Below are positions 23,611 to 47,731 of a stretch of DNA of 64,000 bases, piece by piece. Under the pieces are notes generated by a model. It was not told the DNA's origin and did no database searches. It saw only the letters and a list, made by a program, of their open reading frames with translations. Position 1 is the stretch's first letter. The number at the start of each line of letters is the position of its first letter. Source of the stretch: Halobacillus sp. Marseille-P3879 (GTDB lineage: Bacteria; Bacillota; Bacilli; Bacillales; Halobacillaceae); contig NZ_OESS01000003.1 of assembly GCF_900240285.1 (NCBI RefSeq), positions 124,001-188,000 on the forward strand, written 5' to 3'. The position numbers and the translations under genes are program-made.

Positions 23611-24726
23611 GTGAATAAAGTACCTATTACTTTAATGCGTGGAGGAACCAGTAAAGGGGTATTTTTGCAAAAGAAAGATTTGCCTGCAACTGACCAGGAA
23701 AGGGAAGAATTTCTGCTGGATATCATGGGCAGTCCAGATCCTAACCAAATAGATGGATTAGGTGGGGCTAATTCTCTTACGAGCAAGGTGGCTATTATTG
23801 ATAAGAGCAGCAATTCTTCATATGATATTGAATATACTTTTGCTCAAGTAAGCTTATATGATCAAATGGTAGATTTTAAAGGGAATTGTGGAAATATCTC
23901 TTCAGCAGTCGGCCCTTATGCAATAGCTAAGGGACTCGTTTCAATAGAAGAACCTATTACAAAAGTAAGAATATACAATACAAATACTAAAAAAATTATT
24001 ACAGCGGAAGTAGAAGTGGAAAATGGAAGGGTAAAAACAGAGGGAGACTATTCGATCCCGGGTGTACCAGGCAGTGCTTCGCCTATATTCTTATCGTTTG
24101 AAAATCCTGAAGGAGCTGTTACAGGAAAAGTTCTTCCTACAGGTAGACCGATAGATTTTCTCTCGTGTTCTTTAGGTGAAATTCGAGCATCTATAGTGGA
24201 TATAGCTAATCCCCTGGTATTTGTCCGAGCTCAGGATATAGGTCTTCGTGGAGATGAATTGCCAGAGGAATACTCAAAAGAGCAGATTGACCTTTTAGAA
24301 GAATTACGTGCAGCAGCAGCCGAGAAGTGCGGGTTTGCATCCAAATCTGAAGCTACAAGGCTTTCCCCGGCAACACCTAAATTAACAGTTGTTTCAAAGC
24401 CTTTTGATTATCAAGATATTGAGGGTGAATTTCACAGGGAAGAGGATTTTAACGTACTAGTGAGAATGATGTCTATGCAGCGCCCACATAAAGCACTTGC
24501 TATTACAGGAGCGGTATGTATCACAGCAGCAAGTAAGATTGAAGGTACTATTCTTTCTGAGATTATTGATAAGAATAGCCAAACCATTTCTATAGGTCAC
24601 CCAGCGGGGGTGATGGAAACTATATATAGTGAGAAACCGTTGTCCATTAAAGTCGGTAGAACTGCTCGTCGCTTAATGGAAGGGACGGTATACACAAAAA
24701 GTAATTATGGTCAGTCTGTAATTTAA
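23611..24726 (+). CDS. PrpF-family isomerase (2-methylaconitate isomerase / 4-oxalomesaconate tautomerase type)
   Basis: A 371-residue PrpF-family protein, two domains of diaminopimelate-epimerase fold. Family features are 'MRGGTSKGVFL' at the N terminus, 'GNCGNISSAVGPYAI' with the catalytic cysteine in the first domain, and 'MQRPHKALAITGAVC' near the end of the second. The start is GTG 23611 after AAGGAGG. Relatives interconvert 2-methylaconitate isomers or 4-oxalomesaconate tautomers (GalD, in gallate degradation). Its position opposite the LysR-TctCAB unit suggests it processes the imported unsaturated carboxylate. Confidence 0.87.
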   Translation: MNKVPITLMRGGTSKGVFLQKKDLPATDQEREEFLLDIMGSPDPNQIDGLGGANSLTSKVAIIDKSSNSSYDIEYTFAQVSLYDQMVDFKGNCGNISSAVGPYAIAKGLVSIEEPITKVRIYNTNTKKIITAEVEVENGRVKTEGDYSIPGVPGSASPIFLSFENPEGAVTGKVLPTGRPIDFLSCSLGEIRASIVDIANPLVFVRAQDIGLRGDELPEEYSKEQIDLLEELRAAAAEKCGFASKSEATRLSPATPKLTVVSKPFDYQDIEGEFHREEDFNVLVRMMSMQRPHKALAITGAVCITAASKIEGTILSEIIDKNSQTISIGHPAGVMETIYSEKPLSIKVGRTARRLMEGTVYTKSNYGQSVI

Positions 24727-29951: not shown

Positions 29952-30050
29952 ATTGGTTCTCCTCCTACTATGAATAATTTCTGTTTTATGATTTTCCTTG
30001 AACTATGATTGTCTTTATTCTATGACGCGGAATAGGGAAGTCAAAGGTTG

Positions 30051-30069
30051 AATTTCTTTTATATGGAAC
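30051..30069 (-). promoter_or_regulatory. GTTCCATATA-n-AAGAAATT motif between HAD/ECH and iclR genes
   Basis: On the minus strand the sequence reads GTTCCATATAAAAGAAATT, pointing towards the dehydrogenase/hydratase gene 99 bp away. It matches the motif at the other aromatic promoters. Confidence 0.5.
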
Positions 30070-30107
30070 GTATATTAGGAGAAACTAGTCCTTCAAGGAG
30101 GGAGAAG

Positions 30108-30887
30108 ATGAGTCACCGATCAAATACAAGCCTCGAAAATGCACTGGATGTATTAAAAAGCTTTTCCGGCAATAACCCGGAACTGGGTGTTAGTGAACTA
30201 TCAAAAAAGTTGGATATAGGAGTGAGTACGGCCCATCGTCTCCTTTCATCATTAGCTGAAGAGAACTTTATCGTTAAAAATAGGGAGACCCAAAAGTATT
30301 CACTTGGCCTTTCGATTTTGGAATTAACAAATACTGTGACGGATCAGCTCCATATTATTCGCGAATCCATTCCCATCCTTCAACGTTTGAGAGATGATAC
30401 AGGGGAAAGTGCACATTTAAGTATCATTGATGACTCACATGTTATTTATCTTCAAAAGGTAGAAAGCCCTTATAACACCCAATTAGATACATTTCTGGGA
30501 AAAAGAAATCCTGTTCATTGTACAGGTGCCGGCCAAACTATTCTGGCCTATCAGTCCGAAGGTGAAATGAATAGAGTACTCGGCACAAAAATGAAAGCGT
30601 ATACCGATTATACGATTACAGATGTCAATAAATTAAAAGCAAAGTTTGCTCAAATAAGGAAAGCAGGGTACGCGATAAATAATCAGGAATATCAAACTGA
30701 TTACTTCTCGATAAGTTCTCCTGTATCTAATAAGGAGAACTTAGTGATTGCCTCTATAAGTATCGTAGGTCCTGTGCAAAGAATGAAGCCCTCTAAGGAT
30801 ACTTTAATAAATAAAGTAATTACTGCAGGACTGGATTTGTCACAAATAATAAAACGACGCCAGGCTACTGCCATGAGAAGAGGATGA
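30108..30887 (+). CDS. IclR-family transcriptional regulator (first of two)
   Basis: A 259-residue IclR-type regulator. The N-terminal winged helix-turn-helix spans residues of about 1-70 ('NALDVLKSFSG', 'VSELSKKLDIGVSTAHRLLS'). The effector domain follows, with 'HCTGAGQTILAY' and 'SISSPVSNKENLVIASIS'. ATG 30108 follows AAGGAGGGAG at a good distance; the upstream in-frame extension has no ribosome binding site. IclR proteins near aromatic genes bind ring acids or their CoA esters. It lies divergent from the beta-oxidation operon and 7 bp before a second IclR gene. Confidence 0.92.
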   Translation: MSHRSNTSLENALDVLKSFSGNNPELGVSELSKKLDIGVSTAHRLLSSLAEENFIVKNRETQKYSLGLSILELTNTVTDQLHIIRESIPILQRLRDDTGESAHLSIIDDSHVIYLQKVESPYNTQLDTFLGKRNPVHCTGAGQTILAYQSEGEMNRVLGTKMKAYTDYTITDVNKLKAKFAQIRKAGYAINNQEYQTDYFSISSPVSNKENLVIASISIVGPVQRMKPSKDTLINKVITAGLDLSQIIKRRQATAMRRG

Positions 30888-30894
30888 TACGTTT

Positions 30895-31671
30895 ATGCCA
30901 TCACAGAAATACCTGCTTACTTCAATTACTAATGCTATGAAAATCCTTAACCTTTATAAGACAAGTAAAAGTAAAGAACTTAGCGTTACCGATATTTCCT
31001 CCCAGGTGAACCTGCCGAAAAGTACGGCCCACCGATTAATTACTACATTACGCAGAGAAGGATTTTTGTCTCAAAATCCACGTAATGGTAAATATCGCTT
31101 GGGATTATCACTTTTAACTCTTGGTGGGGTGATATCTGTACACAAAGAAATTTATCGTGATACTTTTCCTTTCGTTGAACAGCTTGTTAGAAAATTGGAC
31201 GAAACTTGTCAAATCTGCCTGCTCGAAGAAGAACATTTAGTTTTCTATTATCGGGTGCATAGAAATGAACCTGAAAATCTTGAGACAAATGAAGGACGTA
31301 AAGGTCCAATACACTGTACAAGTTCGGGTTTAGTGCTTCTCGCTTATCAAGACTTGGCGTTTAAGGAGCAAGTTTTATCAAACCCCCTTCGACGCTACAC
31401 TCCCTACACCGTTACTGACCCCGATAAACTTCTCGCACGTCTTCAGTCGATTGAAAAGGAAGGATTTGCTTTTTGTGAGGGAGAGTACTATAAAGGGTTC
31501 TCAAGTGTTGCTGTACCTATAAGGGATTACTCCTCTAATGTTGTTTCTTCCCTAACAATGATCAGCCCCACGAAGCGGATAAAAGAAAAAGATCTTTTCT
31601 TTTATGTGAATCATCTGAAAGAAACGGCAAGTGATATTTCTGAGGAATTGGGATTTTATGGGGATCTATAG
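30895..31671 (+). CDS. IclR-family transcriptional regulator (second of two)
   Basis: A 258-residue IclR-type regulator, paralogous to its neighbour but clearly different. The helix-turn-helix is 'LSVTDISSQVNLPKSTAHRLI' (about residues 31-52 in pieces) and the effector domain shows 'GPIHCTSSGLVLLAYQD' and 'RRYTPYTVTDPDKL'. It starts at ATG 30895, 7 bp after the first IclR stop, so both are probably made from one transcript. Tandem IclR genes may form a two-ligand switch or heteromers. Ends at a terminator. Confidence 0.92.
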   Translation: MPSQKYLLTSITNAMKILNLYKTSKSKELSVTDISSQVNLPKSTAHRLITTLRREGFLSQNPRNGKYRLGLSLLTLGGVISVHKEIYRDTFPFVEQLVRKLDETCQICLLEEEHLVFYYRVHRNEPENLETNEGRKGPIHCTSSGLVLLAYQDLAFKEQVLSNPLRRYTPYTVTDPDKLLARLQSIEKEGFAFCEGEYYKGFSSVAVPIRDYSSNVVSSLTMISPTKRIKEKDLFFYVNHLKETASDISEELGFYGDL

Positions 31672-32001: not shown

Positions 32002-33549
32002 ATGAGGAAGACTCAATTTAAAGAGACAATAAATGAATTAATAAATGAGTCAGTGAGAAATCACGGAGATGAAGAAGCTGTGTACGATCAGTATGGACGT
32101 CTTACGTATAGTGAATTACTTAGGCAAAGTATAAGTCTCGCTGCGGGGCTTAGAAAGTTAGGTATTAAAAAAGGGGACAGAGTGGCTGTCTGTCTGCCTA
32201 ACTGGAATGAAACCGTTGTTGTTTTTTTTGCTACAGCAAGGTTGGGAGCCGTATTAGTTCCCTTTAACCCTACGTACCGTTCAAATGAAATAGAGTATAT
32301 ATTGAAAAATTCGGAACCAGAAGTACTGTTTATTAATAAAAGTTTTACGGAAAATCTGAAAAAATCAAGTGTACTACCTTTAGTAAAACATGTTATTTCT
32401 GTTCGCTTTCATGAAGATGATTTCATACCTTATCAAAAATTACAAATAAGTGAAGGAAACGGCACAACAGAGAATACTGTCTCTCCTGAAGAATTATTTT
32501 GCATTCTTTATACTTCCGGCACTACTGGCCGACCGAAAGGTGTAATGATATCACATAGGAGCGTTTCCAAATGTTCTACAGCTGTAGTGAGAGAAATGAG
32601 ATGCAATGAGGAAGATGTATTTATTATTCCGGCTCCTTTGTTTCATATATTTGGAATTGCGTGTAACTTAATTGCAGCAGTAGCTGCTGGTGCAAGAATG
32701 GTACTCGTAGAAAAGTATAATCCAACGCTTATGCTGGAATTAATCGAACAAGAAAGAGCCACAGTGCACCAAGGGGTACCTACCATGTTTTTAAAAGAAC
32801 TTCAGGTGCCAGGTTTTGAAAACTATGATTTGTCGTCTCTTCGTACAGGGATGGTAGGGGCTGCTCCTATCTCACCTGAGCAGATGAAAAAAATTCGAGA
32901 AAAGATGAAGTTTCATTTATGCCAGTCTTTCGGAACAACTGAGACAAGCGGCGGTATAACCATTAATAGATATGACGATGATGAAGCTTCTATTCTGGAT
33001 ACTTTAGGGAAACCTTTCGAAGGAATAAAAATAAAAATTGTAAATGAATTCAAGGAGGAGCTTCCTGTCGGAAGTACAGGAGAAATTGCCGTTCACAGTT
33101 TTGGAAACATGAAAGGTTATTACAAACTGCCTGAAAAAACAAATGAAGTATTAGGCGAAGGAGGCTGGTATTATACGGGGGATCTAGGTTTACTGGATGA
33201 GGAAGGAAATCTTCGCTATGTAGGAAGGGAGAAAGAAGTAATCATACGCGGAGGGCTTAATATTTATCCAAAAGAAATAGAAGCTCTCCTATACGAACAT
33301 GATAATATATCAGAAGCTGCCGTAATCGGACTTCCTGATGAAATATTGGGAGAAGTGGTGTGTGCTGTCGTCCAGCTTTATCCAGGAAAAAATATGCCGG
33401 AGCAAGAAGTGAAGAACTATGTGTCGGCTCACCTGGCTAAATATAAAACGCCAGCATCTGTCATTTTTGTCGACCATATCCCAATGACATCCAGCGGTAA
33501 AACTCAAAAAGTTAAGCTAAAAAAACAGCTCATCCACGAACAAAAATAA
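32002..33549 (+). CDS. acyl/aryl-CoA synthetase (AMP-forming)
   Basis: A 515-residue ANL-superfamily ligase. The P-loop is 'LYTSGTTGRPKGVMISH' (about residues 173-189), followed by 'SFGTTETSGG', 'GWYYTGDLG', 'VGREKEVIIRGGLNIYP' and the catalytic lysine in 'PMTSSGKTQKVKLKK'. It most resembles 4-coumarate/medium-chain/cyclohexanoyl-CoA ligases. ATG 32002 follows AGAGGTG. It forms an operon with the permease 33 bp downstream, so it probably activates the acid imported by that permease and feeds the thiolase/dehydrogenase pair. Confidence 0.9.
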   Translation: MRKTQFKETINELINESVRNHGDEEAVYDQYGRLTYSELLRQSISLAAGLRKLGIKKGDRVAVCLPNWNETVVVFFATARLGAVLVPFNPTYRSNEIEYILKNSEPEVLFINKSFTENLKKSSVLPLVKHVISVRFHEDDFIPYQKLQISEGNGTTENTVSPEELFCILYTSGTTGRPKGVMISHRSVSKCSTAVVREMRCNEEDVFIIPAPLFHIFGIACNLIAAVAAGARMVLVEKYNPTLMLELIEQERATVHQGVPTMFLKELQVPGFENYDLSSLRTGMVGAAPISPEQMKKIREKMKFHLCQSFGTTETSGGITINRYDDDEASILDTLGKPFEGIKIKIVNEFKEELPVGSTGEIAVHSFGNMKGYYKLPEKTNEVLGEGGWYYTGDLGLLDEEGNLRYVGREKEVIIRGGLNIYPKEIEALLYEHDNISEAAVIGLPDEILGEVVCAVVQLYPGKNMPEQEVKNYVSAHLAKYKTPASVIFVDHIPMTSSGKTQKVKLKKQLIHEQK

Positions 33550-33582: not shown

Positions 33583-34959
33583 ATGAAAAAACAAAAGCAA
33601 CCTGAAGTTCAGTCCCATTGGAAAATAGGAAACTATCAGATGCGTCTGCCTTTCATTCACTATCGACTGGAAACTCCAGAGTTAATTCAAGGTGTGGTCA
33701 TTTTTACTATTGGATTAAGTATGATTGAAATAATGACTGGCCCTCTTGGCATGTCCTATAGCGCTGCTTTGGCTATTGTTATCTTTGGTCAGTTCTTTAT
33801 GCTGCTGCCCCCGATGTTAGGTGTGCCTTTTGTACCTGGGTTTATTACTCCTCTCATCCCTGTTCTTATTGTATTTTTAGGTGGATTTGAACCAGGGGCC
33901 CAGGCTATACAAGCGTTAATAGCTCTTCAACTAATAGTAGCCTTTATCTTCTTGATATTCGGGGTTACTGGGCTCGGGAGACTATTTGTAACGAAACTTC
34001 CGGCTTCATTAAAAGCTGGGATTCTGATTGGCGCTGGTATCGCAGCAATTATGACAGAAATTGAACCTGGCGGAAGACTTGCCGAAACCCCTATCACTCT
34101 CATAATAGGAGGATTTCTATGTTTATATACTATGTTTTCAAGGTCTTTCCGCAAGCTTCATGATAAGAATAGATTTCTTCGTTTTATTGCGAATTATGGG
34201 ATTATGCCCGCTATCATTATTGCTATTTTAATAGGATGGATCATTCAGGAATATCCTTCTCCACAAATTGAATGGGGGATCACTATACCTTCTTTAACGG
34301 CCATGTGGAATGTTACTCCTTTTGCCATCGGTTTTCCTGGGTGGGATATTTTCATTGCTGCTGTTCCTACGGCTGTACTGGCATACATTATTGCCTACGG
34401 AGATATCATTGTTGGAGATAAGCTTATTGAGAGATCAAGTACTTTCAGACCTGATGAAAAAATTGAATATAATTCAAATCAAATTCACATTTTGACTTTT
34501 ATTCGAAACTTCATTCATGCCCTGTTTTTCCCTCATCCGGGCTTAGCTGGTCCTATATTCACTGCAGGGACAGCATCTGTAGCAGAAAGATATACTTTCG
34601 GAAAAAAGGCGATGCAATCTATTTTCTCAGGTACAAACTCATTGCTAATATCTTTATCGCTGGCAATTTTTATTCTTCCGCTGGTTACACTATTTCAGCC
34701 GTTTCTGCCCATAGCTCTCTCCATTACACTTATTCTGACTGGATACTTATGTATTACAGTCGGTATTCAGCAAGTGAACAATGAAAAAGAGATTGGGGTA
34801 GCCGGAGTTATGGGGATCGTCCTTGCTGTTTATGGTGCTGCTTATGGAATGGTAGTTGGTGTGTTGCTTTATTTGATTATACAGCGCGAAAATATTTTTG
34901 CACAAAAAACACAGTCCCAAGAGAACCTTAAAGAAAATGAAAGAATAGAGAAGATTTAG
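33583..34959 (+). CDS. polytopic permease, NCS2-like (xanthine/uracil permease superfamily), substrate unknown
   Basis: A 458-residue membrane protein with about 12-14 hydrophobic helices. The arrangement and short half-helix segments such as 'FVPGFITPLIPVLIVF' and 'HPGLAGPIFTAGTASVAER' recall the NCS2/SulP (7+7 fold) transporters, but I do not recognise a close characterised member. ATG 33583 follows AGAGGAGGGG. Its coupling to the acyl-CoA ligase suggests import of an aromatic or alicyclic carboxylate rather than a nucleobase. Confidence 0.7.
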   Translation: MKKQKQPEVQSHWKIGNYQMRLPFIHYRLETPELIQGVVIFTIGLSMIEIMTGPLGMSYSAALAIVIFGQFFMLLPPMLGVPFVPGFITPLIPVLIVFLGGFEPGAQAIQALIALQLIVAFIFLIFGVTGLGRLFVTKLPASLKAGILIGAGIAAIMTEIEPGGRLAETPITLIIGGFLCLYTMFSRSFRKLHDKNRFLRFIANYGIMPAIIIAILIGWIIQEYPSPQIEWGITIPSLTAMWNVTPFAIGFPGWDIFIAAVPTAVLAYIIAYGDIIVGDKLIERSSTFRPDEKIEYNSNQIHILTFIRNFIHALFFPHPGLAGPIFTAGTASVAERYTFGKKAMQSIFSGTNSLLISLSLAIFILPLVTLFQPFLPIALSITLILTGYLCITVGIQQVNNEKEIGVAGVMGIVLAVYGAAYGMVVGVLLYLIIQRENIFAQKTQSQENLKENERIEKI

Positions 34960-35139: not shown

Positions 35140-35544
35140 ATGAAACATTTCCATCATATTAAGGTCAGGTTTGGGGATACCGATGCGGCCGGCATCGTCT
35201 TCTATCCGAATTATTATAAGTGGCAGGATCAATCCACTCATGAATTATTTGAAGCGGCAGGATACAGTATATCTAAACTGCAGAAGGAAGATCAGGTAAT
35301 CATTCCATTATTAGAAGCCTTCTGCCAGTTTAAATCTCCGCTTTTCTTTGAAGATAAAGTAAGCGTTCAGACAGAGGTCAAAGAGATTAACAATAAGGTT
35401 TTCAAAGTGGAACATCGGTTTTTCCGGGACGAAGAACGGGTTGCTGAAGGGTATGAGCTTAGAGCATGGACCTCTACAGCAGGAGAAAGGCCAAAAGCAG
35501 TTCCTTTACCTGAATCTATACAAAAAAATCTATTGGATGATTGA
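35140..35544 (+). CDS. hotdog-fold acyl-CoA thioesterase (4-hydroxybenzoyl-CoA thioesterase / YbgC type)
   Basis: A 134-residue thioesterase. The N-terminal catalytic signature is 'VRFGDTDAAGIVFYPNYYKW' (about residues 9-28), with D15 at the nucleophile position of Pseudomonas-type 4-hydroxybenzoyl-CoA thioesterases. ATG 35140 follows GGGAGGA. It is a separate transcription unit between two terminators. In the neighbourhood of CoA ligases, a ring hydroxylase and gentisate dioxygenase it could release gentisate from gentisyl-CoA. Confidence 0.88.
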   Translation: MKHFHHIKVRFGDTDAAGIVFYPNYYKWQDQSTHELFEAAGYSISKLQKEDQVIIPLLEAFCQFKSPLFFEDKVSVQTEVKEINNKVFKVEHRFFRDEERVAEGYELRAWTSTAGERPKAVPLPESIQKNLLDD

Positions 35545-35552
35545 AAAATTAG

Positions 35553-35591
35553 AGTTATGTTCTGAATTCACTTTGGAACATAGCTTTTTTA
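35553..35591 (+). terminator. intrinsic terminator after thioesterase gene
   Basis: AGTTATGTTC pairs with GAACATAGCT (one G-T pair) around a 13-base loop, then TTTTTT. Confidence 0.75.
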
Positions 35592-35682
35592 TTTTTGTAA
35601 CTGGGAATGTTGTTTCCTGCCTGGGTATAAGCTTTTAACACTCTTTCATTATAAATATCTTACGGCTAAATTAATCAATAGA

Positions 35683-35700
35683 GTTCCATATAGAAGAATT
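35683..35700 (+). promoter_or_regulatory. GTTCCATATAGAAGAATT motif upstream of flavin hydroxylase
   Basis: The motif lies 82 bp before the hydroxylase start, in its direction, nearly identical to that at 38053-38070. Confidence 0.55.
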
Positions 35701-35782
35701 GCTCTACCCTTTTAAAAGATAGGTTATTTTATACTGAAATTACTATAAAAATTGTAAATAATCTGAAAAGGAGAATTTGAAT

Positions 35783-37015
35783 ATGAGTGAACAAACGAAG
35801 AAGCGAACAGCTATCGTTGTAGGTGCTGGTCCTGTCGGTTTAACGGCTGCCCTTACCTTGCAGAGTAGAGGTATATCTTGTGCGGTAATGGAAGCGGACC
35901 CTAAAGACCATCCCCGCCCGGGAAGCAGAGCCATCTTTCTGCATAATGCCTCATTAAAGTTATTAGAAAGTCAATCTAAAGGTTTAGGATTTACACTGGC
36001 TAGAAATGGAATTGTCTGGCCAGTAAAACGCACGCTTTACAAAGGAAAAGAAGTGTATAAAAAAGATTATGGTATTACGAATACTCATGACCCCCATAAG
36101 CTTCCTCCCTTTACTGCGCTTCATCAGGATGAAATTGAAGGCCATATCTATGATGCGTGTGTGAGTGCCGGGGTAGAATTCATCTGGGGAACTCCTGTGG
36201 CTGCCTGTCAAACTACATCTGATGGCGCAAACATCACTACTGAGTCAGGAGACGTATGGGAAGCGGATTATGTTATCGGGGCTGATGGCGGACGATCCAT
36301 TGTAAGAACTTCAGTCGGTTTAAAATTTGAAGGGCCTCGTACTCAAGATACATTTCTAGTTGTAGATTTGGAAGAAGATGAAGATAATCCTCTGCCCCTT
36401 GAGCGGATTTTCCACTATCAACATCCTGCAATGGGCGGAAGAAATGTGATGCACGTTCCTTTCAAAGGAGGGTGGAGAGTCGATTTGCAATTGTTGGAAG
36501 AAGATGATCCGGAAGAATTTAAAGACATTGAAGGTGTGAAGAAGTGGCTTCCTAAGGTGATGGCGCCTAAGTATGCGGATCGAATTAAGTGGGTCTCTTC
36601 TTACCGTTTTCATCAAGTTGTAGCCGACTCTTTTACTGATAAAAACTATCGAGTACTGCTGGCCGGGGAAGCTGCTCACTTATTCGCTCCTTTTGGGGCA
36701 AGAGGGCTTAATTCCGGGGTACCTGATGCGATCATTGCTGTAAATGGTATTGAAAAAGCATTAGAAAGTAAGAGTGAAGAAGAAAGACAGGCTGCCATTT
36801 ATGCTTCAGCAAAAGAACGGAGGATTGCTGCAAAATGGAATAGAGACGGCTCTACTACGGCTCTGCACCATTTGCAGGGAGATTCCCCTGAAATGAATAT
36901 GAAAAGAGAAGTAGCAGCTTCTCTAACTGCAGTAGCTCCTAAGCTGGGACGCTGGCTGGATGAAGGTCCTTATGGGCCGAAATTTGGGCCCCCTGAATTG
37001 ACCACTAAATACTAA
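35783..37015 (+). CDS. FAD-dependent aromatic-ring monooxygenase (PHBH family)
   Basis: A 410-residue class A flavin monooxygenase. The ADP-binding loop 'VVGAGPVGLTAALTLQ' is at residues 12-27, the 'DG' motif 'VIGADGGRSIVR' at about 164-175, and the FAD-ribityl motif 'LLAGEAAHLFAPFGARGLNS' at about 292-311, with Glu296 where most relatives have Asp. ATG 35783 lies 9 bp after AAAGGAG. It probably hydroxylates a benzoyl-type substrate, possibly as CoA thioester, to the gentisate pattern. It forms an operon with the unknown gene 17 bp downstream. Confidence 0.88.
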   Translation: MSEQTKKRTAIVVGAGPVGLTAALTLQSRGISCAVMEADPKDHPRPGSRAIFLHNASLKLLESQSKGLGFTLARNGIVWPVKRTLYKGKEVYKKDYGITNTHDPHKLPPFTALHQDEIEGHIYDACVSAGVEFIWGTPVAACQTTSDGANITTESGDVWEADYVIGADGGRSIVRTSVGLKFEGPRTQDTFLVVDLEEDEDNPLPLERIFHYQHPAMGGRNVMHVPFKGGWRVDLQLLEEDDPEEFKDIEGVKKWLPKVMAPKYADRIKWVSSYRFHQVVADSFTDKNYRVLLAGEAAHLFAPFGARGLNSGVPDAIIAVNGIEKALESKSEEERQAAIYASAKERRIAAKWNRDGSTTALHHLQGDSPEMNMKREVAASLTAVAPKLGRWLDEGPYGPKFGPPELTTKY

Positions 37016-37032
37016 GCAAAGGAGCGAGGTCT

Positions 37033-37608
37033 ATGGCAGTAACATCATATGTTCCAAAGAAAGAACTCTTTGGGCCCAATGATAAACGAGTCAAAGTATT
37101 GATTGACAGGCTTACAAATGTAGAATGGTATCGGCAAATCGGAACTAAGGATGTAAGAACTGAAGAAAAGCTGAAAAAATTCATGGATTCATTTGACTTA
37201 TATGACTATGAAACGGAATGGGTTTCATTACAAGAGGTGCCTGGTAAAATTAGGAGTCTAAAGTTAGAGGATAGCAGGCCTTGGGATCATCTAAAAGAAG
37301 TCCCGGAGAAGATCAATACTACAGGAGAAAAAGCTGGAAGAAAAGCAGCTTTGGATCAATTAGTCACTGATATACCCGAGCTTGTGTACCATGGTGCTTT
37401 TAAAGGTGCTTATAAAACCTACCAAGATCAACAAGCCGTTTCAATATTAGCAGGGCATGCCATGTATATCAGTCTTCTGGCTTGTACATGGGAAGCTGTA
37501 GCAGATCAGAGTGGGTGGGAAGATAATCCGTTTCTTTACCTTATCGATATTATGGAAGAAGGCCACCTTCCTCTGGGACCGCACGACAATTCTATTTATC
37601 TGGCATAA
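37033..37608 (+). CDS. unrecognised 191-residue protein co-transcribed with the flavin hydroxylase
   Basis: I do not recognise this family. It is a soluble-looking acidic protein of 191 residues without signal peptide or cysteine motif. A charged N-terminal half holds 'PNDKRVKVLIDRLTNVEWYR'. The helical C-terminal half holds 'PELVYHGAFKGAYKTYQDQ' and ends with the His- and Glu-containing 'DIMEEGHLPLGPHDNSI'. ATG 37033 follows AAAGGAGCGAGG, 17 bp after the hydroxylase stop, and a strong terminator follows. It may be a partner, isomerase or stabiliser for the hydroxylase step. This is context only. Confidence 0.82.
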   Translation: MAVTSYVPKKELFGPNDKRVKVLIDRLTNVEWYRQIGTKDVRTEEKLKKFMDSFDLYDYETEWVSLQEVPGKIRSLKLEDSRPWDHLKEVPEKINTTGEKAGRKAALDQLVTDIPELVYHGAFKGAYKTYQDQQAVSILAGHAMYISLLACTWEAVADQSGWEDNPFLYLIDIMEEGHLPLGPHDNSIYLA

Positions 37609-37616
37609 CTGTCAAA

Positions 37617-37651
37617 GGGACCGTGCTGGTTAAACAGCAGCGGTCCTTTTC
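37617..37651 (+). terminator. intrinsic terminator after hydroxylase operon
   Basis: GGACCG-TGCTG pairs with CAGCA-CGGTCC with a single bulged G, then TTTT. Confidence 0.85.
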
Positions 37652-37980
37652 TTAATACCGTAATAACCTAATTCCAGTGAAATCATAAAATTTTCCCCTC
37701 GGTTTTATACGATTTACTAGACCAGCAATATTGAGGGAAGCAATCACACGTTGTTTTGTTTTATAAACAGGTGCGCCTATCGCAATGATATTGTCCTTGA
37801 ATTCTCTTTCGCTTTTTACAAAAACTTCTTTTCGAATAAGAGAAATTCCCTGTCGAAGTTGATCGGGGCCAGTAATTGTTTGCTTTGTAAAAGGTTTCAA
37901 AGGTTCTTCCAAGAAAAACTTTTAAGAAGACGAAGGGCATTTTCAAGTGAAGTATATTTTCAATTCTTAACAGACGTCAT
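37652..37980 (-). pseudogene. IclR-family regulator, internally deleted
   Basis: On the minus strand an AAAGGAG site precedes ATG 37980, and the first codons read M-T-S-V-K-N-stop, then 'KYTSLENALRLLKSFS', which matches the N terminus of the IclR protein at 30108 ('NTSLENALDVLKSFS'). At about 37910 the reading switches frame directly into the C-terminal effector part ('PFTKQTITGPDQL', 'NIIAIGAPVYKTKQRVIASL'). The helix-turn-helix and about half of the protein are missing. It was probably the local regulator of the divergent gentisate operon. Confidence 0.85.
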
Positions 37981-38052
37981 TCCTTTTCTCCTTTTACGTT
38001 TATGTAAGTTATATCAAAAAAATCAAAAAATTCAGCTAGTATTCACTTAAAA

Positions 38053-38070
38053 GTTCCATATATAAGAATT
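38053..38070 (+). promoter_or_regulatory. GTTCCATATATAAGAATT motif upstream of the gentisate operon
   Basis: The motif lies 78 bp before the ligase start, in its direction, between the broken iclR gene and the operon. Confidence 0.55.
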
Positions 38071-38148
38071 CTACTGTTTTTCAATATACCAGCAAAAATT
38101 ATAATCGGAGTAACATGAGCTAACAAAAAAAGAGAAAGGAGCGTTGTT

Positions 38149-39441
38149 ATGGAAGCGGCAGCTTTATATCCATTGTATGAAACAAAAATGGATCTCAAAT
38201 CCTATCAATTTCAGCGGTTGAATCAGTTGCTGGTGTTTACGCTGCAAAATAATGAATTTTATCAAGAGAAGCTGAAAGGTATTCGGTTTCCGATAAGAGG
38301 ATATGAGGACCTGACAGATCTTCCGTTCACCTTTAAGCAAGAACTTGCCGAAGATCAGGAGAATAATAAACCAGTCGGAAAAAACTATTCATATCCGCTG
38401 TCCAGTTATGTTGAGTTCCACCAGACATCAGGAACTACAGGAAAGCCAATCCGTGTCATGGATACGAAAGAAAGCTGGGAGTGGTGGAGCAAGTGCTGGC
38501 AGGAAGTATATAAAAGCAGTGGGGTCACGGCAGAGGATACTATTTTTATTGCTTTTTCTTTTGGTCCTTTCGTCGGTTTCTGGGGCGGATACCAAGCTGG
38601 AAAAGACGTCGGTTGCTTAGTTATTCCAGGTGGAGGCCAATCTACTAAGCAGAGGCTGTACAACATAATAGAAAATCAAGCGACCGTTTTGCTGTGTACG
38701 CCCAGTTACGCCCTCCATCTTGCGGAAGTTGCTGAACAAAACGATATCGATATTTATAATTCTTCCATGAAAACTATAATAACTGCTGGAGAACCGGGTG
38801 GATCTATTCCTTCTGTACGGGAAAAAATCGAAGCAGGATGGGGTGCGAAAGTATTCGATCATGTAGGGATGACGGAAATGGGAGCTTACGGTTTTTCCTG
38901 TTCCGAACAAAAAGGATTACATGTAAACGAATCAGAATTCATCGCAGAAGTGATTAATCCTGAGACTGGTCATCATGTACGGGAGGGGGAAAGAGGAGAA
39001 CTTGTGCTGACGAACTTAGGCAGATATGGTTACCCGCTAATTAGGTATCGAACAGGGGATGTCGTCGTTCATTCTATGGGCAAATGCGGCTGCGGGAATC
39101 ACTACCGCTTTCTTCCCGGCGGTATAGTAGGAAGACAAGATGAGATGGTGGTCATTCGCGGTACCAACATCTTCCCTCAATCTATTGAAGCGATTGTAAG
39201 AGAATTTAATGGTGTTAACGAGTTTAGAATTATTTACTATCAAGAAAACGGGATGGACCAGGTAAAAGTTCATTATGAAGGTGAACAGTTAATTTTCGAA
39301 GAATTGAAAGCGCTTTTAAGAGAAAGGCTGGGTCTGAGAGTCGATGTAGAGCTCGTGGAAGATAATGTGCTGCCCCGCTTTGAACTTAAGTCACGAAGAG
39401 TTGAAGATCGAAGGTATGAGATGAATAAACCGTTATTTTAA
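38149..39441 (+). CDS. phenylacetate-CoA ligase family (PaaK-type) aryl-CoA ligase
   Basis: A 430-residue AMP-forming ligase of the PaaK family. The P-loop is 'HQTSGTTGKP' (residues 91-100), then 'DHVGMTEMGAYGFSC', 'LIRYRTGDVV', and the C-terminal 'VVIRGTNIFPQSIEAIV'. It lacks the longer N-terminal domain of the ANL ligases at 15253 and 32002. ATG 38149 follows AAAGGAGCG. It is the first gene of the operon with FAH hydrolase, DinB-type protein and gentisate dioxygenase, so its substrate is probably a hydroxybenzoate made into a CoA ester before hydroxylation. Confidence 0.9.
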   Translation: MEAAALYPLYETKMDLKSYQFQRLNQLLVFTLQNNEFYQEKLKGIRFPIRGYEDLTDLPFTFKQELAEDQENNKPVGKNYSYPLSSYVEFHQTSGTTGKPIRVMDTKESWEWWSKCWQEVYKSSGVTAEDTIFIAFSFGPFVGFWGGYQAGKDVGCLVIPGGGQSTKQRLYNIIENQATVLLCTPSYALHLAEVAEQNDIDIYNSSMKTIITAGEPGGSIPSVREKIEAGWGAKVFDHVGMTEMGAYGFSCSEQKGLHVNESEFIAEVINPETGHHVREGERGELVLTNLGRYGYPLIRYRTGDVVVHSMGKCGCGNHYRFLPGGIVGRQDEMVVIRGTNIFPQSIEAIVREFNGVNEFRIIYYQENGMDQVKVHYEGEQLIFEELKALLRERLGLRVDVELVEDNVLPRFELKSRRVEDRRYEMNKPLF

Positions 39442-39486: not shown

Positions 39487-40443
39487 ATGAAACTAGTTAA
39501 TTATATAGTAGACAAACAGGAGAAGCGAACAGGAATCTATGAAGATGGTGTCATCATCGATTTAAACAGAGCTTATGAGAATTACAAAGTATCAGAAGGA
39601 AGTCAGATCGCAAAGAAAACGGCAGCTGTCTATGTCCCTTCTGATATGACCTTGCTGTTAGAGGGGGGAGAAGAAACTCTGAAGGAAGCTGAAAAAGCTG
39701 TTAATTATGTCGTCTCAAACGGTCTTAACGTAGATGGGAAAGTTGTTTTCAACAAAGACGATGTCAAGCTGGAGGCACCGGTTGGGAAACCGAACAAAAT
39801 CATCTGTGTCGGTCATAATTACCGGGAGCACATTTTAGAAATGAAGCGGGAGCTTCCGGAAAATCCAGTCTTGTTCGCAAAATTCAATAATACAATATCG
39901 GGTCCTGAAGATCCGATTGTAAAGAAAGATATTTCCGATCAGTATGATTTTGAAGCCGAGTTTGCTTTCGTCATTGGCAAGCAGGCGAAAAACGTTAAAG
40001 AAGAAGATGCTCTTGATTATGTAGCTGGGTATACAGTGGCCAATGATGTAAGTGTGCGTGATCTTCAAAAGCGGACACTGCAATGGCTGCAAGGTAAAAG
40101 TGTAGATGGCACACTGCCATTAGGGCCGTGGCTGGTAACTAAAGACGAGGTACCGGATCCGCACAATCTGGATATAGAGTTGAAAGTTAACGGAGAAACG
40201 AAGCAAAAATCTAATACGAGCAGTCTGGTATTCAATGTTAATCGTTTAGTTGATTTTGTCTCACACCTGATCACTCTTGAGCCAGGGGATATCCTTCTTA
40301 CCGGAACACCAGGAGGAGTCGGCGTTGCCCGCGATCCCCAGGAATTCCTGCAGGAAGGAGATACAGTTACAATCAGCATCGATCAAGTAGGGATATTGGA
40401 GAATGAAGTGAGAAATGAAGCAAAGACGGAGGTGCACGTATGA
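39487..40443 (+). CDS. fumarylacetoacetate hydrolase family protein (fumarylpyruvate/maleylpyruvate hydrolase candidate)
   Basis: A 318-residue FAH-fold hydrolase. The metal site is in 'FEAEFAFVIGKQAKNV' (E-x-E near residue 157); 'VGHNYREHILEM' near residue 115 and the C-terminal 'GDILLTGTPGGVG' are family hallmarks. In gentisate catabolism this class cleaves fumarylpyruvate to fumarate and pyruvate. ATG 39487 follows ATGGAGGAG. Its stop overlaps the DinB-type gene start by ATGA, so hydrolase and putative isomerase are translationally coupled. Confidence 0.92.
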   Translation: MKLVNYIVDKQEKRTGIYEDGVIIDLNRAYENYKVSEGSQIAKKTAAVYVPSDMTLLLEGGEETLKEAEKAVNYVVSNGLNVDGKVVFNKDDVKLEAPVGKPNKIICVGHNYREHILEMKRELPENPVLFAKFNNTISGPEDPIVKKDISDQYDFEAEFAFVIGKQAKNVKEEDALDYVAGYTVANDVSVRDLQKRTLQWLQGKSVDGTLPLGPWLVTKDEVPDPHNLDIELKVNGETKQKSNTSSLVFNVNRLVDFVSHLITLEPGDILLTGTPGGVGVARDPQEFLQEGDTVTISIDQVGILENEVRNEAKTEVHV

Positions 40444-40931
40444 GCAAAGCAGAACAGTATCAGCAGCAGATTAAGGAAAAAGTGAATACGTATTTAGAGG
40501 TCTCCGATGTTTCCAAGGAAATGGTCAAATGGAAGCCATCGAAAGACGAATGGTCTATTTTGCAGATTCATTCTCATGTAAATGAGTCTCTTAACTTTTG
40601 GATTCAAGATCTTCTGGAAGCCGTGGAAGGTAAGGAAAAATGGGGTCGGACTTTAAAACATGAAGGACGTCTTGCTGCCGTTGAAGATGTAGAGAACCTT
40701 GACATTGAATCCATTCGTGAGGATATTGCTGCCAGTAAGGACAAAGGTATTGCAGAAATAGGTAAGATGAGCTCCGAGGTTTTTGAAAAAGAAAAAGAGC
40801 ACGTGAATCCTAAGTTCGGCGTAAAACCATTATCATTTTTAGTCGAGCATTTCATCATCGAGCATATTGGAAAGCACATCACTCAGGTAGAACGCAACAT
40901 TGCGAATTATAAAGAGAAAGTTCATCAATAA
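40440..40931 (+). CDS. DinB-fold metalloprotein; candidate thiol-dependent maleylpyruvate isomerase
   Basis: A 163-residue DinB/YfiT-superfamily four-helix protein. The three metal-binding histidines of the fold can be placed at H46 ('WSILQIHSHVNES') and at H142 and H146 ('IEHIGKHITQVER'). This superfamily includes mycothiol-dependent maleylpyruvate isomerase of actinobacteria and bacillithiol S-transferases of Bacillus. It sits between the FAH hydrolase (ATGA overlap) and gentisate dioxygenase (14 bp), exactly where an isomerase is needed, and no glutathione-type isomerase is present. I infer a bacillithiol-dependent or thiol-independent maleylpyruvate isomerase. The fold call is firm; the function is inference. 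Confidence 0.8.
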   Translation: MSKAEQYQQQIKEKVNTYLEVSDVSKEMVKWKPSKDEWSILQIHSHVNESLNFWIQDLLEAVEGKEKWGRTLKHEGRLAAVEDVENLDIESIREDIAASKDKGIAEIGKMSSEVFEKEKEHVNPKFGVKPLSFLVEHFIIEHIGKHITQVERNIANYKEKVHQ

Positions 40932-40945
40932 AGGAGGAGATATAA

Positions 40946-42067
40946 ATGGAACAAAACGATTTTATGAAAAGTAAGGAAGTTCAGCAATTCGATGAAGATA
41001 TTAAACAGCATCATCTCGGCCCTCTCTGGCATGCTATTCCTCAGCTCGCATCAAAAGAGCCGAATAAAACGGTTAAGCCTTATTTATGGAAATGGAAGCT
41101 TATTAAAGAAAAGCTTGAAGATGCTACTGAAATTTTCACCCCTGAACGCGGCGGGGAAAGACGTGCGATTTATCTGCAGAATCCAGGGCTGGAAAATCGG
41201 GAGCCATATGGCTGGGGGTCTACTACCTCTACAATGTATGTGGCCGTCCAGCTGATTCTTCCAGGAGAAACAGCCCCTTCTCATCGACATACTCAAAGTG
41301 CTTTGCGTTTTATTAAAGAAGGGGATGGAGCTTTTTCCATTGTGGATGGGGAACGTTTATTTATGGAAGAGGGCGACTTCCTTTCCACACCAAAAGGACG
41401 CTGGCACGGTCATTCGCAGCCAGGGGACAAGCCGATGTTCTGGATTGATGTATTGGATATTCCAACCATTTACTTTTTAAATGGCTCATTTTTTGAAGGC
41501 CATCCTGATGGCATCGAGAATCCTTCCTTACCGGACAACTATTCTGCCAGAAAATATGCAGGAGGACAGGTAAGACCTCCTCAAGACAGACATAGCGAGC
41601 ATACACCTCTTGGAGCTTATAAATGGGAGCAGACGAAAAAGGCGCTGGACAGCATCTCAGATTTTGAACCGGACCCTTACGACGGTCATTCTGTTGAATA
41701 TTTAAGTCCTTCCAATGGGGAAACCGCGCACCCTAATATTTCATCAAGACTTCAAAAGCTGGAAGCGGGATTCCATTCTAAATCCCATCGTCATACAAGT
41801 TCTACCGTGGTGCACATCTTTAAAGGGGAAGGTTATACGGTGATTGATAATATCCGCTATGATTGGGAAGAAGGAGACCTCCTCGTTATTCCGAACTGGG
41901 CTTGGCATGAGCATGTTTCAACTTCAACAGGAGATTCGTACCTATTTACGGTAAGTGACCTGCCGATGATGGAGAAGTTTGGATTGGAGAGAGAAGAAGC
42001 TTATCAAGGGAATAACGGCCACCAAGAGGTTAAAGAGGTTTTTAATCCTGAATTGCAAAATATATAA
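40946..42067 (+). CDS. gentisate 1,2-dioxygenase (bicupin)
   Basis: A 373-residue bicupin dioxygenase that opens gentisate to maleylpyruvate with Fe(II) and O2. The iron ligands are in the N-terminal cupin: H113 and H115 in 'PSHRHTQSALRFI' and H154 (or H156) in 'GRWHGHSQPG'. A second cupin follows with 'SHRHTSSTVVHI' and 'NWAWHEHVS'. Length and motifs are normal. ATG 40946 follows AAAGGAGGAG. It ends the operon of PaaK-type ligase, FAH hydrolase and DinB-type protein. Confidence 0.94.
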   Translation: MEQNDFMKSKEVQQFDEDIKQHHLGPLWHAIPQLASKEPNKTVKPYLWKWKLIKEKLEDATEIFTPERGGERRAIYLQNPGLENREPYGWGSTTSTMYVAVQLILPGETAPSHRHTQSALRFIKEGDGAFSIVDGERLFMEEGDFLSTPKGRWHGHSQPGDKPMFWIDVLDIPTIYFLNGSFFEGHPDGIENPSLPDNYSARKYAGGQVRPPQDRHSEHTPLGAYKWEQTKKALDSISDFEPDPYDGHSVEYLSPSNGETAHPNISSRLQKLEAGFHSKSHRHTSSTVVHIFKGEGYTVIDNIRYDWEEGDLLVIPNWAWHEHVSTSTGDSYLFTVSDLPMMEKFGLEREEAYQGNNGHQEVKEVFNPELQNI

Positions 42068-47341: not shown

Positions 47342-47731
47342 TTATAGTTTTCCAGTCAGGAACTGAGCTTCCCCATTTCCGAAACTCCAATCTGTATCCC
47401 CATTATTCGTTATCGATACCATGATGTCTTCAGGAGAGATATTGCACCATTCCTGAAGGTAAGCAGCTAAATTTTGATATAGGTGTTCCTTTTGTTCTTC
47501 TGTTCTATGTCTGCTTGTTAATGAAATAACGACCACATCCCTGCTTCGCTCAAATCCGAGGCCTGTATCTTGTATGATCATCTCCTGGACTGGGTGCTGA
47601 TGAACAATCTGATAACGGTCACGGTCCGGCACTTGGAAAGCATCTACCATTGCTTCATGTGAAGCGTCCAATAATGACCGCAATTCTTCTTCAGATCTTC
47701 CTTCTACGAGATCAAATCGAACTAATGGCAT
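47342..47731 (-). CDS. tautomerase-superfamily protein (4-oxalocrotonate tautomerase / MSAD-like)
   Basis: A 129-residue member of the tautomerase superfamily, recognisable by the N-terminal catalytic proline directly after Met ('[13 protein letters not shown]') and the double beta-alpha-beta length of the cis-CaaD/MSAD-like groups. Relatives in Bacillus are uncharacterised. ATG 47731 follows AAGGAGG. It is divergent from iolR and probably independent of the inositol pathway; tautomerisation of an unsaturated keto-acid would fit the aromatic locus upstream. Confidence 0.85.

Follow-up and report, generated by a model that had tools for sequence, protein, structure and literature searches.

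The window, meaning the whole stretch of 64,000 nucleotides from Halobacillus sp. Marseille-P3879 that was analyzed, includes a plus-strand group of genes related to aromatic acid degradation (Table 1). At its downstream end, a gene for a DinB-superfamily protein of 163 amino acids, with an ATG start, lies between those for an FAH-family hydrolase and a dioxygenase. The FAH and DinB open reading frames overlap by 4 bp (ATGA), a GGAGG sequence is found at 40428-40432 upstream of the DinB ATG, and a gap of 14 bp that includes a ribosome-binding-like sequence separates the end of the DinB open reading frame from the dioxygenase ATG. The first-pass annotation had described a DinB protein carrying H46, H142 and H146, encoded by a gene that overlaps the hydrolase gene and lies upstream of the dioxygenase; its coordinates, triad and neighbors were all correct.

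Table 1. Features of the proposed gentisate locus in the window.
Feature	Coordinates	Strand	Basis
Two tandem IclR-family regulators	30048-30887, 30895-31671	+	
Acyl/aryl-CoA ligase	32002-33549	+	
NCS2-like permease, possible aromatic-acid uptake	33583-34959	+	Weak Pfam match, under gathering score
4HBT-type acyl-CoA thioesterase (upper pathway)	35140-35544	+	
FAD-dependent aromatic monooxygenase of the upper pathway, listed with a TTG start	35777-37015	+	
Uncharacterized 191-aa protein, often with monooxygenase	37033-37608	+	No Pfam/NCBIfam match at E<=1
PaaK-like aryl-CoA ligase (upper pathway)	38149-39441	+	Profile matches
FAH-family hydrolase, proposed fumarylpyruvate hydrolase	39487-40443	+	PF01557, E 1e-73
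DinB-superfamily (S-transferase-like) protein, proposed maleylpyruvate isomerase (BagL type)	40440-40931	+	Pfam, alignments
AGGAGG ribosome-binding-like site, in 14-bp gap upstream of dioxygenase	40932-40937	+	
Bicupin gentisate 1,2-dioxygenase-type enzyme	40946-42067	+	TIGR02272, PDB sequence matches

The window FAH protein and the window dioxygenase both score under the NCBIfam equivalog cut-offs. The dioxygenase matches the gentisate_1_2 model (TIGR02272) with an E of 4.5e-89 and 298.7 bits, where the equivalog cut-off is 442.1; it is therefore classed as gentisate-type but uncertified, with gentisate as its presumed substrate. Among solved structures, sequence comparison places gentisate 1,2-dioxygenases closest to it (best E 1e-72). 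The PDB relatives of the FAH protein include a putative fumarylpyruvate hydrolase as well as the maleylpyruvate hydrolases 6jvv and 6jvw (E 1e-37).

The thioesterase, the FAD monooxygenase and the PaaK-like ligase, all within 35140-39441, suggest a route to gentisate by way of CoA thioesters, like those from 4-hydroxybenzoate in Brevibacillus laterosporus or from salicylate in Streptomyces. The 191-aa protein, for which no credible PDB match was obtained (best E 0.22), is possibly a partner of the hydroxylase. Other features of the neighborhood were also recorded. Relatives of the 191-aa protein adjoin, or are near, an FAD monooxygenase gene in many loci (e.g., L049, L054, L062, L063, L066, L077 and L088). 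In a 129-aa protein encoded on the minus strand (47342-47731), both the N-terminal and the C-terminal part match 2-hydroxymuconate/4-oxalocrotonate tautomerase models weakly and under the cut-off, as though one chain combined two tautomerase units, and a plus-strand gene (23611-24726) encodes a protein similar to PrpF/4-oxalomesaconate tautomerase that scores under both equivalog cut-offs.

The assignment of the 163-aa protein to the DinB superfamily comes from Pfam DinB_2 (PF12867), which matched residues 21-149 with an E of 5.2e-7 and 30.6 bits (gathering score, 24.8), and which also matched all 31 relatives at E<=0.1. A scan of the protein against NCBIfam returned no match near a cut-off; the weak matches to histidine kinase, EF-1 beta and ZapD models were far under theirs and were set aside. 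The closest named relative, with 83% identity, is that of Halobacillus dabanensis (L003), the one relative found in a single-protein scan of named genome contigs. The loci collected include none from a named Paenibacillus. The gene is under purifying selection, as the comparison between the window and L045 gave a dN of 0.092 and a dS of 1.70, this being the one of three pairs tried that gave a dS.

Occurrence and Gene Order

In the family to which the host belongs, the window protein alone, used as the query at E<=1e-5, found a DinB relative in 4 of 44 genomes, the same four that carry the dioxygenase. Across the order, the dioxygenase is present in 35 of 397 genomes, and a profile of 31 sequences matched a DinB protein at E<=1e-20 in 32, all of them among those 35; none of the 362 genomes lacking a dioxygenase match reached that threshold. 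The 32 genomes are spread over 15 family codes and are exactly those in which the best dioxygenase match reaches 55% identity with the window enzyme, a line that was drawn post hoc and without which the figure is 32 of the 35 dioxygenase genomes. Three genomes whose dioxygenase relatives are of 45-50% only (G169, G312 and G402) gave no match to the DinB profile at E<=0.01. The profile was made from 31 of 34 sequences, with L071, L073 and L044 (identical to the L003 stretch) left out, and most of its loci are the ones counted here, as 26 of the 32 positive genomes contributed rows. In G222 and G331, the gene was found by adjacency and was left out of the profile, and in G058, G214, G239 and G390 it was found only by the profile.

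When all 38 dioxygenase genomes are taken together, the DinB gene is present in 35, and the scores fall into two sets: strong matches stop at an E of 1.2e-48 and the next one is at 1.5e-8. Wider draws gave a DinB gene in 18 of 398 genomes of the class and in 1 of 398 genomes in an even draw of the phylum, the latter being that of the window itself. The profile for the glutathione-dependent isomerase MaiA (TIGR01262) matched none of the 38 dioxygenase genomes, while its controls gave a match in 3 of 14 genomes, over the cut-off in one. The genome of the window is one of these 38.

The order of the genes was compared in 56 DinB loci collected in the order, family and class searches, a count that leaves out L044 and L145. 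In 54 of these loci (the two others are L125 and L158), the DinB gene is either fused to an FAH gene or at most 60 bp from one in the same orientation, and both FAH and dioxygenase genes are within 60 bp of DinB in 43. The FAH-DinB-dioxygenase arrangement is widespread in the class. Three genomes (G058, G214 and G239) have FAH and DinB paired and the dioxygenase elsewhere, which indicates that the bond of DinB is tighter with FAH. In three loci, FAH and DinB form a single open reading frame, of 471 aa (L067) and 481 aa (L068) in the order and of 445 aa (L157) in the class. In the DinB tree, L067 and L068 form a group (98/93) to which L157 does not belong; on the strength of that tree, the fusion has probably arisen at least twice. 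The joining of the hydrolase and the DinB domain in one chain argues that the two handle successive intermediates.

A gentisate-type cluster with DinB is also present on a plasmid of Alicyclobacillus dauci (L145; NZ_CP104065.1, 134318-148985), and its DinB protein, the sole annotated relative seen, is named just "DinB family protein". This cluster is close to Cas12b and Cas2 genes. Genome G1140 has a further copy on C1, identical in the DinB rows compared.

A quick method gave a dioxygenase tree of 71 rows, from which L044, L145 and the incomplete L087 were omitted; a row counted as adjacent even when DinB was as far as about 1 kb away, provided that FAH lay in between. All seven rows of one clade and 44 of the 50 rows of another have DinB. 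Two further clades, one of 8 rows and one of 6, show no DinB neighbor at any of their 14 loci within the fetched stretch (nearest at 6.9 kb), some of these stretches stopping at contig ends. The existence of such clades implies that other gentisate-like pathways may dispense with a DinB isomerase, perhaps by direct hydrolysis or by acting on other substrates. Profile searches found neither a DinB isomerase nor MaiA in G169, G312 and G402, which have the other dioxygenase types only. In G390, an upper operon like that of the window is beside a dioxygenase/FAH pair of the other type (L088) and the DinB gene is elsewhere, an arrangement that counts against the reading that every such pathway needs a DinB isomerase. 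For the dioxygenases of the two clades without a DinB neighbor (14 rows: L047:17209-18375, L048, L056:8433-9566, L062:12189-13352, L063:15773-16891, L080:133-1245, L082-L086 and L088-L090), the usual partner is a more distant FAH protein, and their ring-cleavage product may be processed with no isomerase.

Conserved Residues and Phylogeny

H46, H142 and H146 are invariant in the putative isomerase group, both in the 31 rows of the profile and in a set of 57 rows that leaves out L044 and keeps three identical rows (L145, L161 and L162). The positions invariant in all 57 rows (25 positions counted) are W38, H46, E49, G69, R70, R77, H137, H142, H146, Q149 and R152. Ordinary DinB paralogues of the same genomes, which surfaced as separate weak profile matches, served for comparison: the 18 near-full-length sequences among 31 weak matches were used, and the 13 others, nearly all short and partial, were left out. 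The paralogues keep the triad (18 of 18), W38 (18 of 18) and Q149 (17 of 18). The triad, shared by both sets, is thus the metal site that DinB-superfamily proteins have in common. Other positions behave differently: E49 is found in one paralogue, G69 in at most one, R70 in two, R77 in one, R152 in one and H137 in none, although position 137 is a gap in 16 of the 18, so that the absence of this histidine is sensitive to how the sequences were aligned. In these alignments, E49, R70, R77, H137 and R152 mark the putative isomerase group against the paralogues, though they are not exclusive to it.

The solved structure nearest to the window protein by profile is BH0186 (PDB 2rd9; E 5.2e-7). The two proteins have the same residues aligned at H46, E49, R77, H142, H146, Q149 and R152; they differ at W68-G69-R70, which fall in a gap, and at H137, which is aligned with an alanine. 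On this alignment, BH0186 could be a distant functional relative. The AlphaFold model of the window protein, computed from a two-row alignment (the window and L003), has a mean pLDDT of 44.5 and was discarded. What points to a four-helix-bundle structure for the window protein is its sequence matches to DinB profiles and to 2rd9.

In the DinB tree, the isomerase label needs two changes, and the isomerase rows are not wholly on one side of a branch. Eight of them (families f187 and f219 and the Alicyclobacillus dauci plasmid) group with 17 paralogues at a fork that is open and unstarred (80/88). The remaining isomerase rows take in a single paralogue, whose end branch measures 5.5. Because of the long-branch warning on this tree, no monophyly is claimed for the isomerase rows.

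Discussion

The DinB protein of the window is very probably the enzyme that isomerizes maleylpyruvate in a gentisate pathway. It had already been put forward as a candidate for this step in the first-pass annotation, and the proposal is now strongly supported by the synteny, the three fusions, the occurrence in dioxygenase genomes only (in the family and order samples), the lack of MaiA and the invariant triad. In the pathway that we propose, the CoA ligases, FAD monooxygenase and thioesterase of the upper operon would produce gentisate through CoA thioesters, and the dioxygenase would open its ring to give maleylpyruvate. A divalent metal is expected at H46, H142 and H146 of the DinB protein, as in its relatives. 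If the protein works as the mycothiol enzyme does, a low-molecular-weight thiolate bound to the metal would attack the cis double bond of maleylpyruvate; after rotation about the C-C bond, the thiol would depart and leave fumarylpyruvate. The prime candidates for holding the carboxylate and keto groups of the substrate are E49, R70, R77, H137 and R152. The FAH protein would then hydrolyze fumarylpyruvate to fumarate and pyruvate.

An isomerase of Paenibacillus sp. NyZ101 is reportedly named BagL and encoded in the gene order bagKLIX. BagL and the window protein have the same pathway step, a Bacillota host and the order hydrolase-isomerase-dioxygenase (reportedly bagK-L-I) in common; a point of difference is that the host of the window encodes BshC. 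The window protein is most likely an orthologue of BagL. In 2012, a Paenibacillus maleylpyruvate isomerase that depends on a thiol was reported, and the title of the article calls it L-cysteine-dependent (Liu & Zhou 2012, J Bacteriol 194:3987). The first-pass view that a bacillithiol version of the enzyme would be a new enzyme type for Firmicutes is, in the light of that title, not supported. BagL presumably has the DinB fold, judging from the synteny and from its citation beside DinB enzymes in the accessible text of PMC8562490.

The mycothiol-dependent isomerase of Corynebacterium glutamicum (NCgl2918, PDB 2NSF) is similar in its reaction and in its DinB-type metal fold, according to the accessible portions of PMC8562490 and PMC4360819, the second of which presents mycothiol as an actinobacterial thiol. 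Unlike enzymes of the NCgl2918 type, the window protein is a single domain of 163 aa that lacks the second, C-terminal domain. The MDMPI_N domain gave no match to it at E<=1; among the 31 relatives, 5 do match at E<=0.1, the lowest E being 7.9e-5. The predicted ligands also differ, being H-H-H in the window protein and, reportedly, H-E-H in the mycothiol isomerase. The zeta-GST glutathione-dependent isomerases (MaiA and NagL) catalyze the same reaction as that proposed here and belong to a different protein family. The bacillithiol S-transferases BstA-BstH of Bacillus subtilis share the DinB/STL fold and three conserved histidines; the H67/H160/H164 of BstA have the same H-x3-H spacing as the triad of the window protein (PMC5815605, in part). 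In the available text of that study, the three histidines are the sole fully conserved residues of the eight bacillithiol transferases, whose activity drops to the background rate with EDTA. The 18 ordinary DinB paralogues of the present genomes differ from the window protein in that most of them lack E49, R70, R77, H137 and R152.

A different division of labor can be considered, in which the FAH protein would act on maleylpyruvate itself, leaving the DinB protein the accessory role of detoxifying a reactive intermediate as a bacillithiol transferase. FAH-family maleylpyruvate hydrolases are known, those with solved structures mentioned above among them, and the sequence of the window FAH protein is compatible with either activity. 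A glutathione-independent hydrolytic route is described in the accessible part of PMC11603403, and that of PMC7581956 describes a gentisate route independent of glutathione in Bacillus laterosporus; the clusters of the other dioxygenase types without an adjacent DinB gene point the same way. An accessory role, however, hardly fits a protein encoded beside FAH in nearly all of the loci compared and fused to it in three genomes, nor one that all 32 order-sample genomes with the close type of dioxygenase possess, and the polar signature exceeds what the ordinary paralogues keep. We consider this reading improbable. Another substrate would be a related cis ring-cleavage product, for instance that of 5-aminosalicylate or another substituted salicylate, instead of maleylpyruvate. 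The dioxygenase does score slightly higher on the 5-aminosalicylate dioxygenase model than on the gentisate model (320.2 versus 298.7 bits, both under the cut-off), but its nearest solved structures are gentisate enzymes and the gene order is what is said to be that of the Paenibacillus 3-hydroxybenzoate/gentisate cluster, so that such a substrate appears more improbable still.

Bacillithiol-making Firmicutes are without glutathione, according to the accessible text of PMC5815605, so their gentisate pathway needs another thiol. BshC was over the cut-off in all 38 dioxygenase genomes (35 of them with DinB) and in the 16 further class genomes with DinB, that is, in each of the 51 genomes found with a DinB gene; in the host of the window (G000), the match has an E of 2.3e-174 and is over the cut-off. 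As BshC was also found in 149 of 190 genomes of the class draw, and common descent contributes, this association is weak: bacillithiol is probably available in these hosts without being singled out. Dependence of the window protein on bacillithiol is plausible, and in a host that encodes BshC we hold it, at roughly even confidence, to be the likeliest single physiological thiol, with L-cysteine next. The Paenibacillus isomerase is said to prefer L-cysteine over cysteinylglycine and glutathione. Bacillithiol, L-cysteine and cysteinylglycine each have a free cysteine amine; a preference for L-cysteine would therefore not exclude bacillithiol, which is a fair candidate.

A variant of our preferred explanation, in which the DinB protein is the isomerase and L-cysteine or another simple thiol is the physiological partner, is possible, if somewhat doubtful. 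It is favored by the title of the 2012 Paenibacillus article, as it appears in the reference lists of citing papers. Against it, the divergent BstA-BstH of Bacillus subtilis used bacillithiol with monochlorobimane (PMC5815605, accessible text), and BshC accompanies DinB in all 51 genomes, though with the high base rate in the class given above. In a literature search that left subscription papers mostly outside, no bacillithiol-dependent maleylpyruvate isomerase was named in the titles or abstract starts among the matches listed.

The enzyme activity is already in print for a member of the Bacillota; what merits further work is the identity of the thiol, together with the fusions and the residue signature. 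The FAH-DinB fusions, the residue signature and the co-occurrence are results of the present analysis. The conserved pairing, together with the fusions and the signature, permits a surer annotation of these proteins across Bacilli and names the residues to target. We tentatively propose, with slightly less than even confidence, that in bacillithiol-making Bacilli the single-domain DinB protein is a bacillithiol-dependent maleylpyruvate isomerase and that the FAH-DinB fusions are bifunctional enzymes passing fumarylpyruvate on directly. If this is true, bacillithiol would be an obligate catalytic cofactor in carbon catabolism, beyond its role as a protectant. Bacillithiol mutants should then fail to grow on gentisate, and growth on aromatic acids would become a simple in vivo readout of bacillithiol.
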